Origin: Planoprotostelium fungivorum
Taxonomy: Eukaryota > Evosea > Variosea > Cavosteliida > Cavosteliaceae
Assembly: GCA_003024175.1 (NCBI GenBank)
Contig: MDYQ01000100.1
Coordinates: forward strand, 62,001 to 126,000
DNA: 64,000 nt
Reading direction: 5' to 3'
The position numbers and the translations under genes are program-made. Positions 2,974 through 56,530 of the stretch are shown here, piece by piece. Numbering within the stretch: the stretch's first letter is position 1; each line of letters opens with the position of its first letter. Below the pieces are notes generated by a model. That model saw nothing but the letters and a program-made list of their open reading frames with translations, did not search any database and was not told the origin of the DNA.

Positions 2974-5900
2974 TTATAGATCAGCAGTGACGGACGAATA
3001 CGTAATGAAAGAACGCGACATTTTATCATCTTCAATAATGGTTGTTCTGATGATCCATGAGGAGTTCTCCTCGCTCTTCTGCTTTCTTCGTCTCATATAG
3101 AAGAACACGGCGGTTGCGATAAGTCCAACACCCAGAATGACGCCGATGGCTATGCCTGCCTTCTGTCCTGGCTTCAGCGACGTGTCTTCGCTCTTGACAG
3201 AGCCGTCTGTGGGCTGAGGCTGTCCGCTTGATGTCACACTCGAGCTCTGTGTGACCTCTTCACTGCTGCTGGTCGAAGAGGTTGTGGACTCCTGCACAGA
3301 GGTCTTAGACTCTGTGGTAGACGTAGTTCCTGGCTCGTCACGTGTTGGTGACTGGGTGACGACCGTCTCTGATGTAACATCACTGGTAGAGACAGTAGAA
3401 TGAGTGGATGTAGAGGAAGAGGCAGTGGGACCAGGAGCTACGGTAGAGGTGGTAGGGACAGAAGATGCAGACGTGATGTCATTGACTGCTATCGATACGG
3501 CAGGTAAGCCTGCAGTGGCTGCGTACTCTGCAAATCGGTTTCTTCCTGCGTTCTGTGCCTCGTCCATCGCAGTGACGAAGCTGCTCTGTGCTGTGGCAGG
3601 ATCGATACGGCCCTGACTGAAAACGGCCGTGGCTGACCCTCCTTGTCTCTTTCTCGATGATGCGACAAAGTTTTGTAGGGAGAGGGACTTGATGTTAGAT
3701 CCAATGGTACCAGCGATGATCTGTCTCAGCTGCGTGCTATTCACTGCACCCACAAAGTGAAACGTTATGCTCTGTGATAGTCGTTAACAATATGTACATC
3801 ATCTGTACGATATCTTACAGTATTAGACGGAGGCTCGGAGCTGTTGCCATACCACAGACGAACGACTGTCATCTGTCCCATGTTCTCTCTCTGTGCCGTC
3901 TCGTTGAACAAGTTATCTGTTCCTTCGTACTGTCTGCCCAGCGCATCGTTCAGCTTCTCTACAGCAGATGCCACAGTGACGTTGTCTCCTATCATCCGCA
4001 ACGCCATCACTCGTTCGTATCTCTCGTCAGCCAGCTGCCATTTCTCTTCATCGGCTTGTTCGACATATACATTGGTGATGTTGGAGAAGAGGGAGAGAAA
4101 CTGAGGGTCAGAAGCATTGCGATCTGTGAAGAATCGTACGTGGACCATCTATCTTCATTCATTACATTATCTTTCGATCGACATCACCTCCTCGGTACCC
4201 TCCGTGACTGATTGTAGATCGATCTTTCCGTACACTTGATAACCGCTCTCGATCTCTCTGTTCACCGATGTGTTCGTCAGGCTCAACAGAGCGTCCTCCG
4301 TCTGGCTACCGATATCATAAGAGAATCCACTGATGATGATCGTGGCTGTTACGTTGTAACGATAGAGGTTGAACCCAGCGCCGCTGTTGTTCTTCACGGT
4401 ATATCGAGTTTTGAACGTGAAAGACTGCAGAGCGTTTCCTCCCTCGCAAGCGAACATGAATGCGGAAGAATAAGCGTCGACGTAGAAATCATCCGGTGCA
4501 GCCGGAGAGACCATGGCATACCGAGCTACGATGATCTGTCCTCCGTCACGATTCTGTCTCGTTGTAGTGTGACGTCACCTTCGAATCGACTGGCATGGTA
4601 GGCTCTGGCGTACCTTTCATCCACAAGTAGATGAGTCTCGGGTTCAATGGTTTCGGGCAGTTCATGTTCATGTAACAAGTGAAGACCATCTTCTTGCTAC
4701 TCTGAGCCCACGAGTGGAGACGCTCGACGGCGGCGAAGAAGTCGGTCGAGTTTGCCGTCAGGCCGTAAGAGGCCGTAACGTCAAAGTTGGTCAAGCTGCG
4801 GTTTCCACTGTAATGCGACGTCCAATACGCACCGCTCTCTTCGTGTAGGATTCTAGCTGATGTGACTTGACCCCAGAAAGGACTGAAACCATCGTTGGGC
4901 GATATAGACAGACCAGTGTACAAGATGCGCGTCCAAAATACCTGATTCGAATGAGACGACATCTAGAAAGTGTAGCTCACAGTGGTAAGAGAGTAAGCGG
5001 GCTCAGTCTCGTTCGCCCTCCACAGATGGATACCTCTGAGCTCGGACAAGTTGTACATCCTAGAATACTTCTTCCACTCTCCCTCTAGCAGAAATTCACT
5101 CAATGTGTTCATCGAGGAGATTAAAGTCCTCTGGTTGTCCCACGTCAGGTTTCCTTGTGCCCTTACGGTGGCCACTGCAAGACAGGCGGTCAAGCTGGTG
5201 AGATTGTGTGTCTCGTAGGCGGTGGGAGCTATCTCGGTCAGGCGAACGTCAGCCACATTGGAGAACAGACGGAGGTAACCATCTGCGTCGAAGAAGGTCG
5301 AGTTGTAGTCGAAGCTGACGTAACGGATGTTGTAGTCCTGTACGGGTCAGTGGTTGTACGAGGTTTAAGGTTTTCACCTCGGTCTGTGGATCCATCGTGA
5401 TGGCATCGGGGTAAGCAGGTCTTTCATCACCGTCTCGCCAGACAGCACCCACGCGAATGTAGGGAAGGGTCGAATTGTCTATGACGGGATTGAAACGTTC
5501 GTAATCTCGGTCGGCCACCGCAGATCGCAGGTTCGCAAATGCGAGGGTGACGTTGTCCCGGTAACCGACCAGATCGAAGTTGTAGATCTGCCAGTGATCG
5601 TACATCGCGCTGTCGGGGGAGATCCTTCTGACGTATCCACTGAGCCCATCTCTCGAGCTGTTGGAAAATTTGACGCCCGGAACTTTCATCGCATGGACGA
5701 TGGAAGCGTTTAGATCGAGATACGGCAGAGAGTTTGTACCGTCTCTGTAGTAGACTTGCACGTGGAACGACTGATCATGAGTCAGTGATCGTTCGAACGT
5801 ATTTCATCTTCACCTCCGTGTGTGCCGGGTCAACTTCGAAGAGAGAGAAATGTGGAATCTCGCCTTCGTCGCACATTTCATTCAAGACGGACTGGTTGGC

Positions 5901-7246
5901 GTGGTGAAGAAGATACGAGAAGGCCTCCACATTTCGTCTCAAGTTGCTGTCGTCACCGTAGATCGTCAAGTTACCGTTGACGTTCACTGTAAGAGTGGCA
6001 AAGTATTTGAATGTGGAGTCAAAGTGATGATGGCTGTCCAAGCTAGCGATGATGCGACCGATGGATAGATTGTGAGAGGTAGATAGAGTTCGGATGACGT
6101 AAGCCATGGCCTTCGGATTGGCGGCAGTCTCGTTAGATGGTTGTTCCCACGAGATCGGTACGTTCACTCCCTGCGTCATCATCAGATGATGGTGATAGAC
6201 ATCATCGTGTGATGATGTCGACATCGTGAAGGGTATACACTCTATAGAGTATAGATTCATCTCTTCACCTGTTCTACGGTGACCACGGGGACGGCTGGTA
6301 TGGTCTCGCCATCTTCCCAGAATGAGAGAGAAGTCATGGTGGCATTCGCGCGAGTGGTGAAATATAAATCCTCGTCATTCTTTAAATCGCGGATTACGGT
6401 GTCGGGCAGATCCGTCCATCCCCTGATGTTCAGCTTGGCCACGGCACTGAACGAAGTCGTTCCGTTGTAGATGAACCTCTCCTGTGTCAAGTCGGACAGC
6501 GAGATGTCTGCAAAGCGGGCACGGTAAGAGACGCTGGAGAAGATGGGAGCCCAGTCGTTCTTCTGTTCTACCCCATTGTACGAGAAACGGATGTTGATGC
6601 TCTGATGAGATCAGGTGCGTGATGGATGGATGTTCTTCACCTTGTTGGTTATTTCGAAGGCGGGCTCGGTGGTGTCGGCGTCCCAGAAGCCAAGGACGTA
6701 TATGGGAGGGACTGTCAGAGTACGGCGATAATCGTAGAAACTGTTGCCGTTTCTGGCATAGAGCTCTTGGCTGTCTAAAGCGCTGACAAAGATGAGACGT
6801 GCATATATGTGAGATGAATCGAGAGGATTCCAATGTGATGAGACCTACCGGTTGAGATTGTTGATGGCCACCGTATCATTCGTCACAGTAAAGTTGACCA
6901 CCTGATCACGGAAGGCGGCTGCACCTCTCTTCTCCGTAGGCAGGCTCAGAGAAGAGACAGAGGCGGATCGGCGATCGGAGTAGTAGTGGGACGTTGCGAT
7001 GTGCTGGAAGATGTTGACAAATTCGGATGTGCTGTCATTGGTGTAGCGAGCTCCCACATCGCTCAGAAATCGACCACAGAGAACCTGTGTCTTGTCATCA
7101 CCTCTTCTCTCTATACTGCAACTCACTCTATCGGAGGCCTCCACAACAGCGGGGCCTGTTGTTTCGATCAGGGCTGCATCGACAAGAGACTTACCATCAA
7201 AGAAGGCCAAGGAGAGGAGGCAGAGGAGAGCAGCTACTGTCTTCAT
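2974..7246 (-). CDS. Large type I membrane protein with repeated ~115-130-residue ectodomain units, one per exon
   Basis: Ten exons: 7246-6849, 6770-6641, 6601-6269, 6170-5814, 5770-5378, 5337-4981, 4941-4579, 4535-4188, 4148-3819 and 3771-2974. Together they give 3807 nt, exactly 1268 codons plus stop. The start at 7246 was chosen because it opens a signal peptide (MKTVAALLCLLSLAFF); an earlier in-frame start would bury it. Most exons encode one repeat that opens with a beta-strand-like segment (NIRFSYNG, VQVYYRDG, VRFFTDR) and closes with an aromatic/EP motif (GFWDADTTEP, HLWRANETEP, YLWMKGTPEP, RLWYGNSSEP). N-glycosylation sequons are abundant. The last exon adds a Ser/Thr-rich stalk, a membrane helix (IAIGVILGVGLIATAVFFY) and a short basic tail. 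Probably a surface receptor or adhesion protein. I do not recognise the repeat. Confidence 0.8.
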
Positions 7247-37165: not shown

Positions 37166-37206
37166 CACGTCAACGAATGAACAATTTTATACACACAAAC
37201 AGCGTC

Positions 37207-37524
37207 TCAATGGTGTCCATGGTGTCCATGATGTCCATGGTGACTGTCATGTCCATGTGGTCCGGGGTAGCCGTGAGGTCCAGGGTGTCCATGAGCTCCG
37301 GGGTATCCAGCCGTATAGACAGTGGTCGTTGGCTGCACATACGCTACGGGGGGTGCAGCATACATCGGCTGAGGTGGATAGCCCATCGGCTGTCCATAGA
37401 CAGGAGCTGGTTGAACGTAACCTGGTCCTGCCTGGTGGACGACAGTTGTCATGTGACCGTGAGGGTGCTGGTGAGGATCGTGATGGTGATGATGGGAATC
37501 GTGATGGTGATGTCCGTGTGTCAT
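37207..37524 (-). CDS. His/Gly/Pro/Tyr-rich small protein, cluster member 1
   Basis: Single exon, 105 residues. Layout: MTHGHHHHDSHHHHHDPHQH, then TTVVHQAGPGYVQPAPVYGQ, PMGYPPQPMYAAPPVAYVQ, PTTTVYTAGYPGAHGHPG and a terminal GHHGHHGHHGHH run. The middle and the Thr-Val-Tyr-Thr joint are nearly identical to those in the gene at 38704-39054, so the two are paralogues. No signal peptide. His density suggests metal binding or self-association; this is inference. The gene start was chosen at the MTHGHHHH Met shared with the paralogue. Confidence 0.75.
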   Translation of the reverse strand: MTHGHHHHDSHHHHHDPHQHPHGHMTTVVHQAGPGYVQPAPVYGQPMGYPPQPMYAAPPVAYVQPTTTVYTAGYPGAHGHPGPHGYPGPHGHDSHHGHHGHHGHH

Positions 37525-37918
37525 AACTAAAGAAGGTCCTGTTGCGGTGTCTGTGGTGGAAATTGTGAAGTGGAGGTCAGAGATATCTTTCGTTCCGGAT
37601 GTCGTGAGAAGAAGCGTTTTTACTGTTTTCTCGCTGACACGAGACGACTGTCGGGGAAACAATGAAGTCTCATGATCGCACAAAGTTCGGCGTTGAAGTT
37701 CCAAAAGAGGAATGGTTAGAATAAAATGAGCAGATCATCTCAGAGAGACGATATCCCATCCGACACGATCGCGGTCACACCCATGGTTACATCTTGGACC
37801 TGGGGGGAATGCACGTAGTTCTCGGTTCAATCAAGACGTGAAGACATTACACCTGATAAGGACACCCGCTTTAACCTTTCGTCAGGATGAACGAACCATT
37901 TTATACAGTACGTCGTCA
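37525..37918. other. Intergenic spacer within the His/Pro-rich cluster
   Basis: About 390 bp between cluster members 1 and 2, including the upstream region of member 1. An open frame runs through the His-rich start upstream to 37704, but it has no paralogue support and I treat it as untranslated. Confidence 0.4.
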
Positions 37919-38158
37919 TTAGAAGTGAGGTCCCGAGTGGTGACCATGAGGTCCTCCTGGTGGTCCGGGAGGAAAGCCTTGGGGCCCAGGCGGTCCGGGT
38001 GGATATCCAAAAGATCCGGGGGGGCCGGGTGGCGGAGGTCCATGATGGTGATGATGCCCAGGGCCGCCAGGCGGGAAACCGGGAGGAGGAGGTCCAGGAG
38101 GGAAGCCATAAGATCCAGGAGGTCCAGGAGGGTAGTTAGGAGGTCCAGGGAGGTGCAT
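37919..38158 (-). CDS. Pro/Gly-rich PPGPP small protein, cluster member 2
   Basis: Single exon, 79 residues: MHLPGPPNYPPGPPGSYGFP, then GPPPPGFPPGGPGHHHHHGP and FGYPPGPPGPQGFPPGPPGG, ending HGHHSGPHF. Irregular PPGP units resemble collagen-like composition, but the strict Gly-X-Y period is not kept, so a triple helix is unlikely. It shares the His clusters of its neighbours but not the QPAPVYGQP core. Short 3' flank sequence (TTTATACA followed by a few bases) is similar to that of members 1 and 3. Confidence 0.65.
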   Translation of the reverse strand: MHLPGPPNYPPGPPGSYGFPPGPPPPGFPPGGPGHHHHHGPPPPGPPGSFGYPPGPPGPQGFPPGPPGGPHGHHSGPHF

Positions 38159-38703
38159 GATTTGAGTGGGTGTTTGTGTGTGCGTGAAAGAATGATTTCG
38201 AGTCAGAGACGCGAACCTTTTCAACGTTTTGGTGTCGGGGCGATTGATGATGATGATGATGATCAAGTGATTCAGTGAATGTGTCAAATCGAAGGGTGTC
38301 GCAGTGGTCGTGTACACTCTGTTGAGGTTGAGAGGACTGTATTCGTCAATAGATTGGTGCAGCTCGATTGAGATGTACGTCTGTGTTGCGAAAGATGACG
38401 AAGTCATTGAATGGAATGAAGATGAATGATCGGAGACATGAGAATGAACAAGGATCACTTCACAGTGAGGCGACCGAGATATTCTCATCATGAGATTCAA
38501 CAGAAGTCATTTATGCACACAAACGTCTCGATGACGAGGTCCAAATCACGATCACCATACCCAGGAGATATTGGTGGTCCAGGGGAGTGTTTGTGTGGTG
38601 TAGGAGGGCCCGCGAGGAGCTCCAGCAAGATCACGAGCCGAAGGCGAAACTTGACAACATTTGAATTGAATGTGAGTAAACAAAACAGATTTATACACAG
38701 AGT
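38159..38703. other. Spacer with a probable decayed cluster member near 38480-38650
   Basis: About 545 bp. Near 38505 the text TTTATGCACACAAACGTCTC is close to the 3' flank of member 1 (TTTATACACACAAACAGCGT, 37190). On the minus strand just upstream, a Pro-rich frame (HSPGPPISPGYGDRD) is visible but short. I read this as the remains of another copy or an unresolved spliced member. Confidence 0.35.
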
Positions 38704-39054
38704 CTAATAGTGGTGTCCGTGGTGACCATGGTGGCCGTGGTGACCGTGATGGCCGTGGTGTCCATGGTGTCCATGGTGGCCGTGGTGTTCGGTAGTATAG
38801 ACAGTGGTCGTGGGCTGCACGTACGCTACGGGAGGAGCGGCATACATTGGTTGGGGTGGATAACCCATCGGCTGTCCATAGACGGGAGCAGGCTGAGCAT
38901 AGACGGGTGCGGGCTGAGCATAGACGGGTGCTTGCTGATGGACGACGGTTGTGGTGTGATGGTCGTGGTGGCCGTGGTGATGGTGGTTGTGTCCAAAGAG
39001 GGTATCAATGATACCGTGGTTGTGGTGACCGTGATGGTGGTGTCCGTGAGTCAT
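38704..39054 (-). CDS. His/Gly/Pro/Tyr-rich small protein, cluster member 3
   Basis: Single exon, 116 residues: MTHGHHHHGHHNHGIIDTLF, GHNHHHHGHHDHHTTTVVHQ, then APVYAQPAPVYAQPAPVYG, QPMGYPPQPMYAAPPVAYVQ, PTTTVYTTEHHGHHGHHG and further GHH units to the end. Compared with member 1 it has an extra AQPAPVY unit, an inserted IIDTLFGH segment and a longer GHH run (8 units). The nucleotide sequences of the two are alike through the core, so duplication looks fairly recent. Function unknown; metal binding or coat/condensate formation are possible. Confidence 0.75.
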   Translation of the reverse strand: MTHGHHHHGHHNHGIIDTLFGHNHHHHGHHDHHTTTVVHQQAPVYAQPAPVYAQPAPVYGQPMGYPPQPMYAAPPVAYVQPTTTVYTTEHHGHHGHHGHHGHHGHHGHHGHHGHHY

Positions 39055-39405
39055 GATATATATACTATAGAGAGGCTCTTGTGGCTGAAAGAATGATTTG
39101 AAGGAAAGAGATATCCGCCTCCGGATCGCGACGGAACACGAAAGAGCTTTTTCATTGTTTCTTCTGACATAGTTTGTTTCTCCGACGCGGAGTTTCTCGT
39201 TGTGCCAACATCACAGCACCCAAGCTCACAGCTCTCATGATCAGCTTCGTCAATGCATGATCACGATAGCTGAATCGGCTGCTGGCAATACAAAATGCTT
39301 CGTGATGATTTATTTCCATTTTCCAGGAAGAGACTGGGGTTGTAGACGATGACTTCTACGAAACAGACGTGGTTCCGACAGACACACCACAACAAGAAAG
39401 GGATC
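39055..39405. other. Divergent intergenic region between His-rich member 3 and PARP1
   Basis: About 350 bp, upstream of both genes. The frame with an ATG at 39349 reads into PARP1 (MTSTKQTWFRQ...), so an N-terminally longer PARP1 cannot be excluded. TATATATACTATA at 39057-39069 lies just upstream of member 3 and could be its TATA region. Confidence 0.4.
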
Positions 39406-43808: not shown

Positions 43809-46800
43809 TTACAAGATCAGAGCCAAACAGAAGACGATCATCTTGATGCCGGCGGCGACCCTCGCCGATGAACCCTCTTGAGGTCTAGCACTCTCTTTGT
43901 TTTCAGAATCCGTGACGGTCTCTCGAACGGATGAAGAAGTTGCTTGTGTTGAGTTGTCCGATGATGATGTTGTTGTTGTTGACGGTGCCGGGGATGTGAC
44001 GGTGGACGTCTCATCTGATGATGGAGCCGAAGAGGTGGACGATGAGAATGTGGAAGGAGGCGTTGACGTCGAACTTGCCGAAGAGGTCGTCGCTGAGGTT
44101 GATGAGGTTGATGTTGTTGATGATGTCGTTGGGGGGATGGTGGACTGTGCGAAAGAGGCAGGTGGCAGCTGCGGCGTCGGGGGTATCAATGGCATCTTCA
44201 CCCAACCATTTCCCGCCAAAATCTCCACCCTTCGGTACAGCTTCGAAATGGCGCCAAAATTGTCCTCCACGTACAGTGTCACGTTGTAGACACCGGGCTG
44301 GTAGTAGACGTGCGATGTGATGGCGTGAGAGTCCGCCAGCTTGAAGTCATAGATACCGTAACCATCTCCAAAGTCCCAGGAATAGCTTAAGAAGTCGATG
44401 TCTAAATCGGTGGAGCCGGAGGCATCGAATCGGACAATTTGTCCAGCCCGGAAGTCTCCCCTGACGACCAGATCGGGCACGGGAGCCGCGTTTCCCAGGG
44501 AAGTGTACCACCCTTCCGGACGTAACCGTACGTAACTCTGCGCCGTGGCTCCCTGGGCGTCCGTAACTGTGAGTAAGGCGAGGAAATTGAAACGGAGTCC
44601 AGTGTGAGATCCCGACACGGCTTCGGCATCCAGAGACAACGTAGATCTCGTTGAAATCTGCGTACCGGGATGGTAGTGATTGACGTGGATCATGATGATG
44701 TCCCAGTAGTACGTTACGTCCGAGTACGCTCTTACGCTCGCCGCGAGGTCGATCTGACCGGTGAGGGGGTAGTCGTGATAGGCTTTAGAGGTTGGTGATG
44801 TCATGATGACTGAAGGTGCTGCTCTCCCGACCGTGATGGTGATCTGTCGTGTGGCCGTGAAGAGACTGCCCACCACGGTGAGGGTGGCTACGTACGTACC
44901 GGCCGTGTTGTACGTGTGGCTCGGGTTCGGAAAATCCGCGGAAGTTCCGTCTCCGAAATCCCAGGTGGCCCGTGTGACACTGTTCCCATTGGGATCGTAC
45001 GTACCGTCCATGGAGAAGATTACGTTCAGTGGAGCGGCACCGAATAGAGGAGCGGCGTCGATCTTGATCACCGGCGGCGTGGAGTCTGAATAAGAGATGC
45101 AGTGGATTTCAGCAGCGAGCATCTGCAAGTAACAGATGTCCTTTGTCTTTGGGTTGACTTCTAATGACACGATGGGTGTACCGTAATTCGAGAACGAATT
45201 GATCCTCTCGTAGCGATCGGCCGTGACGTCGAGCGTCTACAACGAGTCAGTCGACATCCTTTCGAATGACACGTACCTTGATCCAACTCGCTCCGTAGTC
45301 TAAGACGAAGAGGTCGTTCTTGTACTGAGTCGGGTAGCTGTCCCCAGTGTAGAAGCTGAGACCCCCGACACAGTTGCCGACGAACCCCATGTTGAGTTGA
45401 TATTGCTCTCCGTACAGACCTTGCATCTGATCGGTGTAGCGAGACCAATAGAAGAGAGGCGCATCGGTGGAGACGTTCGCGTAGACGTAAGGACAAGAGA
45501 AGGCCCTGCCGTCGTCGTTGAAAGGACGATTCAGCCTGGGGTTGTTGTAGTTCAAATTGTTCATCGCGTTGCCGCGGTAACCTCCCATCGGTTTCGGTCC
45601 TGTTTCGTTCAGATGGCGCGTTGTAGATGGACGTTACCCTCCCAGCAGGGCCAGCCAAAGTTCATACCGGGCCGCACGGCGGCGTTAATTTCTTCGAAAC
45701 TTCCGAGGCCGACGTCGCCGATGTAGGGTGTCCCTGGGCCCTCTACAGTTTCCCCGGGGGACAGTGGTCGGATGTTCATAGAGTAAGGGTTACGTATGCC
45801 CATAGCATAGATTCGAGAGCGAACGGATGAGGTGTTCCTCTCGCAGTAGGGGTTTAAGACGGAGTAGCCGGAGCCGGCACAGATACCTTCACCGGTGGTG
45901 GGGTTGATGCGGATGAGCTTACCGCTGAGGGTGTCCTGTGGAGTCGATGAGATAAAGGTGATGACGAAGAGGTGATGGTCGAAAGGATGTCATATCACTT
46001 AATCACAATGTGATGATGTAAAAGAACGATCGACATGATTGCACCGAAGATGTGACGAGCTGCCCACCTTCGATTGAGAGCGGAAGGCACCGATGGCTTT
46101 TGATGCACCGAAGGCGGTCTGGCAGTATGCATCGTAAGGGAATTTGGAGTTGGGTTGTCCATAGTCCAAGACGTCTGTCTCAAAGTGGCCTCCGTCACCG
46201 AAGACGATGAAGAGAGATCCATCGTGTCCCCATGCGATGCCTCCTCCCAAATGAGTCGACGAACAGATGACAGGTGCATCGTCTTTCGACTGTCCAACTA
46301 AGATACGAGTGGTCGAGAGGTCACCCAGGCCGTTAGAACCTTGGCTCACGCGGATGACACGAGTGTATGAGATGGCATTCTCATCGGTGTTGGGTCCGTA
46401 GAGGGAAGTAACGGCGAAGACGAGATAGACGTGCGGGTTAGCTGCAAAGTTCTTGTTGACTTCTACGGAGAGGAGTCCGTGATCTCCTGCATTGTGAACC
46501 TATGCAAGTCAATCGGATGATTAAAAGTTTCATCTTACTTGGTTGGAGATGTCAAGCCACTGGACGAGTTGCTTCGTGTCCACGTTGTAACGGAAGACGA
46601 ATCCAGCTTTGGCGACGATGAAGATCTCGTTCGTGTTGTCGGTGAATGCAAACCCAACGAGAGTTCCAAAGTTGGGCACTCCTTTCCCTGTTGCAAATTA
46701 GACATCATGTGAGTGAGATGAAGACTGAGTGGGGATCATCTCACCGGACACGAGCGTAAGATCGGTGAATTTAGAGGCGATGGCGGGGTCCATTGCCCTC

Positions 46801-55641: not shown

Positions 55642-56530
55642 ATCAGTCCACGAGGCTACGGGCGCATTAATGTTTCATCTTGTATTACCAGAGGACTTCG
55701 ACTAACCTACATGTGACGATTCTATCGATAAACCAGCCGCAGGCGGTACAAAGATCGTGACAACAGATGGTGCGAACATCAGAGCTGAGGACAGCACCAA
55801 AGGGACTGTCGCAGAGGCGGCAAAGACTGAGGCTGGCGCCATTTCACAGACGAAGGTCACTGAGAGATCAGAAAAGTGGACAGAAATCAACTCTCAATGA
55901 ACTGCCGCAGACGGTACAGTGACAGTCGAGTGGAGAAGAGTTGAACGGGAATCTTTTCACTACTCATCTCCAATAAAAAGTCACGTCACCCTTCAGCAAG
56001 CGCATCGATAGACAAACGCGAAGAAGCAGAATAGTAAAGAGACGTGCGCGATGCATGCGAGGAGACAAAAGAACAGATCAGACACCAACATCCCCCTCCG
56101 ATTCACAATGAGACGAATGAATCGGACGATCATCGATTGTCCCTGAACCGAAGTCCAGTGACACACTCTCACGCTCAGAGAACGTTGGTATTTGTCGTCA
56201 ACTCTGTTTGAATTCGTTTGTTCATAGTTGAACTTTATAGACTGACCTCAGTATTAGTGATCCTGAAAGTACGGTCTGAAACGAGATCGAGAAGTTTGGG
56301 GGTCGACCGTGTAAAAATCGAAGATGTCAACATTATGGGATGAGAATATGTCTTCACACCTGGTGGAGGACGATAGAATATAGACGGTGAAGAGATATCG
56401 AAGTAGATGGAAAGAGTGTTACATAACATCAGACACAGATGGAGATGGAATCAATCGTCCGACATCATTCCCACGAGCGATGATATGTTGAGAAAGGGAT
56501 GAGAAAAGACGAATAAAATAAAGAATTTTA
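55642..56530. other. Intergenic with an orphan coding-like frame (55703-55900) and a poly(A)-like signal
   Basis: About 890 bp. On the plus strand, DDSIDKPAAGGTKIVTTDGA, NIRAEDSTKGTVAEAAKTEA and SQTKVTERSEKWTEINSQ are read in one frame with stop at about 55900. No ATG is in frame, so it could be an exon of the gene before it. AATAAAA at 55972 fits a downstream poly(A) signal. The rest (about 55980-56530) holds no gene I can support. Confidence 0.35.

Follow-up and report, generated by a model that had tools for sequence, protein, structure and literature searches.

A repeat-unit surface protein gene of Planoprotostelium fungivorum and its portable membrane-proximal module, in which an invariant Lys-Arg is a likely convertase site

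The window analysed here is the whole stretch of 64,000 nucleotides of Planoprotostelium fungivorum DNA. Near its start, on the reverse strand, lies a spliced gene (7246–2974) with ten exons that join into 3819 nt, or 1272 codons and a stop. The earlier note had likewise counted ten exons, but exactly 1268 codons, a gap that comes from the choice of splice sites. The introns are 39–98 nt long and have GT-AG ends. Eight of the nine junctions are in phase 0, in keeping with the symmetry noted previously, and the remaining one (exon 1/2, phase 2) falls inside the first unit, U1, which is split across exons 1 and 2. Exons 3–9 encode one unit each (U2–U8, 110–131 aa). The last exon opens with a ninth unit, U9; after it come a Ser/Thr stalk, a single hydrophobic helix and a tail that is short and basic. 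The features are listed below with the evidence for each; the leave-out HMM is built from units of other genes, and P_U3, P_U6 and P_U7 are units of a paralogue.

6849–7246, reverse strand: exon 1, signal-peptide-like start and first part of U1; a Lys-Arg (residue 106) lies directly ahead of a predicted U1 strand
6641–6782, reverse strand: exon 2, remainder of U1, ending in GFWDADTTEP; HMM of other genes' units, E 3.2e-3
6269–6601, reverse strand: exon 3, unit U2; leave-out HMM, E 2.3e-7
5814–6170, reverse strand: exon 4, unit U3; paralogue unit P_U3, 1e-11; missed by the leave-out HMM alone
5378–5770, reverse strand: exon 5, unit U4; leave-out HMM, E 3e-7
4981–5337, reverse strand: exon 6, unit U5; leave-out HMM, E 2.6e-9
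4579–4941, reverse strand: exon 7, unit U6; paralogue unit P_U6, 2e-22; missed by the leave-out HMM alone
4188–4535, reverse strand: exon 8, unit U7, without the Trp-Glu-Pro end; P_U7, 1e-24, and C459 A_i, 4e-4; missed by the leave-out HMM alone
3819–4148, reverse strand: exon 9, unit U8, predicted beta-alpha-beta-beta-alpha-alpha-beta; leave-out HMM, E 3e-10; model pLDDT 91.8, pTM 0.82
2974–3771, reverse strand: exon 10, whole
3478–3771, reverse strand: start of exon 10, U9, the membrane-proximal module with the invariant Lys-Arg; alignment, and AlphaFold model with mean pLDDT 81.0, pTM 0.72
3646–3651, reverse strand: Lys-Arg of U9 (K41 R42) in the predicted beta2-beta3 loop, between strands 30–36 and 45–51; likely convertase site
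3160–3477, reverse strand (limits approximate): Ser/Thr-rich, mucin-like stalk, from the translation
3090–3159, reverse strand (limits approximate): transmembrane helix GIAIGVILGVGLIATAVFF and flank, a hydrophobic helix in the translation
2974–3090, reverse strand: short basic cytoplasmic tail and stop, from the translation

Two other genes of the window, both on the reverse strand (1–2150 and 43812–46499), each combine glucose/sorbosone dehydrogenase-like (GSDH) and PKD domains, which in the second are followed by a Ser/Thr stalk and a hydrophobic, GPI-signal-like C-terminus. There is a U3 snoRNA at 56073–56278 (reverse strand, 75.6 bits), and His-rich and Tyr-Pro-Gly-repeat open frames at 37200–39210 (reverse strand) are perhaps a small gene pair.

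The folded ectodomain contains 31 N-X-S/T sequons where 12.6 ± 3.1 are expected (2000 shuffles, maximum 24). With the signal-peptide-like start, the Ser/Thr stalk and the single helix, this excess supports the reading of the product as a modular type I surface protein, much as had been proposed. The exon joins are read from the sequence, and the model might combine separate genes or contain wrong joins; every join keeps the frame across a GT-AG intron, however, and the order of units is kept in a paralogue about 60 kb away, and we regard an artefact of this kind as very improbable.

The leave-out HMM comprises 13 units, all from other genes, and was searched against the 960 open reading frames of the window. 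It finds U8, U5, U2, U4 and the C-terminal part of U1 (E-values in the list), and misses U3, U6, U7, U9 and the N-terminal part of U1 (E 0.19 or worse); the best value among five shuffles of the 960 frames is 0.085. Aligning the units into a profile, a step proposed in the earlier note, recovers five of them, U1 in part, from other genes' units, while U3, U6, U7 and U9 join the family by iteration or via paralogues only. At least 90% of the 21 aligned internal units retain the Trp that belongs to the Trp-Glu-Pro end, and hhalign relates the profile of the internal units to that of the juxtamembrane ones (probability 92.3, P 5.4e-7).

No Pfam family scores above its cut-off for the 11 juxtamembrane units, the 21 internal units or the whole protein, for which the best scores are TM_ErbB1 (6.6e-5, the membrane helix, below cut-off) and Podoplanin (0.0014, the stalk). 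Among PDB sequences the ectodomain has no match up to E 10; the sole PDB match of the juxtamembrane profile, streptokinase (E 0.66), is taken as chance. A search of genome contigs returned no prokaryote relatives of U8. Judged against Pfam and PDB sequences, the unit represents a sequence family not described before, and its predicted fold is a known one. The structures were predicted with AlphaFold from 11 alignment rows for U9 and 21 for U8. The U9 model consists of strand 2–7, helix 12–23, strands 30–36 and 45–51, helices 58–75 and 79–87, and strand 93–98, and the U8 model has the same order of elements, so that both are predicted to share the ferredoxin-like (beta-alpha-beta-beta-alpha-beta) topology. 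This fold is very common, and is also the fold of SEA domains. An Ig-type fold, an all-beta sandwich, was rejected, as both models contain two or three helices. The best two of 350,542 PDB chains for U9 in Foldseek are IA-2 (3np5_C, E 0.038) and phogrin (4htj, E 0.049), which are not significant, none of 918 matches reaching 0.001 or better. For U8 the first is an ACT domain (5fii_C, E 1.3e-3), followed by other ferredoxin-like domains. Hence the new domain claimed by the earlier note survives as a sequence family and gives way, as a fold, to a common topology in both units modelled; no significant match of a single unit to SEA or Ig was found, and the claim is to that extent not refuted.

The genome searched comprises 36.9 Mb in 471 contigs. 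Its actin has its best PDB matches in 4efh (Actin-1) and 3chw/1nlv (Major actin/Actin), from Acanthamoeba and Dictyostelium, which by a small margin points to a probable amoebozoan. In the paralogue about 60 kb away (L006) every unit from U2 to U9 has its own counterpart (E 1e-11 to 4e-34). A frame-keeping phase-0 intron with an ordinary donor is possible at seven of its eight junctions; at U3 to U4 the sole intron candidate has an unusual donor. Contig C459 carries a tandem gene pair (A, B) that matches unit by unit (A_b–B_a, A_c–B_c, A_d–B_d, A_e–B_e, A_f–B_f, A_g–B_g, A_j–B_h). Its second gene is without a counterpart of A_h and A_i, which means that two units have been gained or lost in frame. 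By best match on the window or the L006 side, A_e, A_f, A_g, A_h and A_i correspond in order to U3, U4, U5, U6 and U7, not every such match being reciprocal best; no counterpart of U8 was found between A_i and A_j. Shorter members have two units (C88) or three (C31, C73). Paralogues thus differ in unit number, as expected if units come and go without loss of frame, and the family forms an exon-by-exon record of gain and loss. One unit per exon describes exons 3–9 of the window gene but does not hold throughout the family: L022 (A_e and A_f) and L023 (B_g and B_h) each have an open frame with two units, and introns at unit borders are therefore common but not fixed.

Two pairs of loci on different contigs are nearly identical, L024/L025 (C31/C73; 98.9% over 2039 bases) and L027/L028 (C126/C197; 98.7% over 4742 bases), and are either alleles assembled apart or recent duplications. 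Asn-Pro-Tyr stands in the short cytoplasmic tails of L022, L023 and L008, and tyrosines are present in the tails of several members; such tails may serve in uptake or bind adaptors.

The last unit stands apart from the others, a point that lay outside the repeat idea of the earlier note. Searches of the genome, with exon 10 or individual last units as queries and same-strand neighbouring open frames taken as partners, indicate that it is a portable membrane-proximal module, shared here by surface proteins of otherwise quite different build. It stands beside Ser/Thr-rich sequence alone (L010, L030), a peptidase S41 fragment (L026, 6.8e-8; L026 is 82.5% identical to L028 in DNA), a GH81 glucanase (L035; GH81 matches 3e-53 and 9.2e-17) and an ectodomain without family assignment (L029). 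In L045 and L046 the host proteins are Ser/Thr-rich and have a hydrophobic, GPI-signal-like stretch at the end. LRR-kinase genes are tentative hosts: L034 has an LRR match (6.9e-10) and kinase motifs read by eye, and L033 a kinase fragment (0.0019, under its cut-off). An LRR ectodomain, one helix and a kinase encoded in short exons give these two the appearance of protist receptor kinases. Some copies are weaker. A single-pass profile gives E 6.6e-4 for L033 and 0.25 for L034, the values for L035 and L046 are 5.5e-11 and 1.4e-4, and L045 is found by one query only (E 0.0088) and by no profile.

The 11 aligned juxtamembrane units are 22–58% identical to U9 of the window and have four invariant columns only: Lys, Arg, one Phe and one Ala. 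Lys-Arg occurs at the matching place also in the five weaker members (L033, L034, L035, L045, L046), which makes 16 of 16 distinct copies in a set gathered by similarity, where Lys-Arg itself adds to the match score. Four loci (L031, L032, L036, L037) were left out of this count as stalk-only or weak matches with no unit passing E 0.1. With Lys-Arg masked, the profile still finds L035 (7.9e-9) and L046 (0.0073), both of which have the pair, and L033 falls to 0.066. In the model of the window's own U9, the pair (residues 41–42) lies in the loop between the second and third strands, and the site sequence, S-R-K-R, is kexin-like. Internal units rarely have it: Lys-Arg is present in 4/34 (window U1, C459 B_c, A_h and B_e) and stands directly ahead of the predicted third strand in two, U1 and B_c, being elsewhere in A_h and B_e. 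The site is thus not unique to the last unit, and U1 and B_c may carry its equivalent. A Ser/Thr-rich stretch precedes B_c (L023:716–1087) in the same frame. Autoproteolysis at a GSVVV-type motif was rejected as a rule for the family, as the motif is not conserved among the 11 juxtamembrane units, some of which read GSATA, GSAVG or GSITI after the loop. The SEA-like domain of Notch is without such a motif. Alignment and model together make the Lys-Arg of the last unit a likely convertase cut site, and the genome holds a kexin/furin-like convertase gene (L044, C116:208088; P-domain E 3.3e-10), whose best match in the PDB is Kexin (1.5e-32); the genome search listed no other P-domain match.

By analogy with Notch and GPR126, the window gene may encode a modular receptor or adhesin in which a convertase cuts the last domain, the halves stay associated and the ectodomain can be shed, a reading to which we give about an even chance. 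Nine ferredoxin-like domains would stand in a row, the first eight serving binding or reach and the last one processing. In the secretory pathway or Golgi, this last domain would be cut after Lys-Arg by a kexin-type protease, and its halves, held by their shared beta-sheet, would reach the surface as a non-covalent heterodimer, which a pull or the binding of a ligand would split, releasing the ectodomain. The protein may have a role in recognition or adhesion. The Ser/Thr stalk beside the module and the single helix fit a shed surface protein. The same Lys-Arg and kexin-like gene would also suit a cut that is a maturation step only, in a row of units acting as a rigid adhesion rod without regulated shedding; the GPR126 furin-site mutant described in PMC6954182 was still at the surface, which implies that cutting can lack an obvious role. 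The site is kept, however, on mucin-like, peptidase, glucanase and unit-array proteins, which suggests a common use, and maturation alone seems to us an unlikely account. The pair might instead have a structural role, or form a turn that its charge stabilises, and never be cut. Its invariance speaks for this, whereas protease sites usually tolerate Arg-Arg or a shift; yet it lies in a predicted loop, the loop lengths around it vary (alignment gaps), and the site is missing from 32/34 internal units, which have the same fold, all of which makes an uncut pair quite improbable.

Should the last unit, with its likely convertase site, be called a SEA domain? According to the sections of PMC6954182 used here, autoproteolysis and furin cleave the MUC1 and Notch-2 SEA domains within the beta2-beta3 loop, that of GPR126 is cleaved by furin at an (R/K)-X-K-R site, and the cut halves remain joined until force is applied. 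PMC6586460, in the part used, treats SEA-like juxtamembrane domains, that of Notch included, as proteolytic switches, and PMC3174154 assigns the IA-2 ectodomain to the SEA superfamily; the cases known from these three sources are mainly in animals, and a literature search for the SEA domain together with Amoebozoa found no paper. It is possible, though we doubt it, that the units are genuine SEA domains that descend from an early eukaryote and have diverged very far. The fold class is the same, the SEA-like IA-2 and phogrin head the Foldseek matches of U9, the place is membrane-proximal with O-glycosylated neighbours, and the KR..GGSATA or KR..GGSITI found after the loop in some members resembles GSVVV. 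Against this, the structural matches of U9 are not significant, those of U8 lead to ACT and other ferredoxin-like domains, and the ferredoxin-like fold is very common. Nor is there a sequence signal to the SEA domain of MUC1, which aligns to the unit profile with an hhalign probability of 0.1, below the best of 60 shuffles. A genome-wide search with PF01390 gave no match, with a control that was equally silent. The last unit would thus work like a convertase-cut SEA-like domain, and it is not filed as SEA because place, fold and loop agree with SEA but the sequence does not.

Membrane-proximal domains that are cut yet joined allow animal receptors such as Notch to convert mechanical pull into a signal. 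Tentatively, and with the balance of probability against it, a non-animal lineage may have its own portable, convertase-primed switch on mucin-like proteins, ectoenzymes, adhesins and LRR receptor kinases, the internal units being copies of the module that lost the cut site and now serve as binding domains. If so, many surface proteins of this organism would be made as separable heterodimers, in the manner of Notch, and this would show whether the design is ancient or arose twice. The Lys-Arg gives a clear prediction of where the cut should fall.

Among known systems, ACT and other ferredoxin-like domains provide the best structural match of U8, but theirs are intracellular ligand-binding domains, none of them membrane-proximal. 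The membrane-proximal ectodomains of IA-2/ICA512 and phogrin, the best matches of U9, belong to type I receptors (PMC3174154, in the part used), although at 10–11% identity and E 0.04–0.05 the likeness is not significant. The SEA domains of MUC1 and GPR110/GPR116 are alike in being ferredoxin-like and near the membrane with a Ser/Thr-rich neighbour, the known cases being cut in the beta2-beta3 loop (PMC6954182, same sections); they are unlike in showing no sequence similarity that could be found, in the invariant Lys-Arg here in place of GSVVV, and in the tandem rows of nine. The Notch heterodimerisation domain and the GPR126 SEA domain have LNR or 7TM partners that are absent here, and the site here is a kexin-type Lys-Arg and not (R/K)-X-K-R. 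What they have in common with the last unit is a ferredoxin-like domain whose beta2-beta3 loop has a basic site for a protease, at which a cut in the last unit is predicted only; the domain of Notch is a juxtamembrane proteolytic switch (PMC6586460, PMC6954182, in the parts used).
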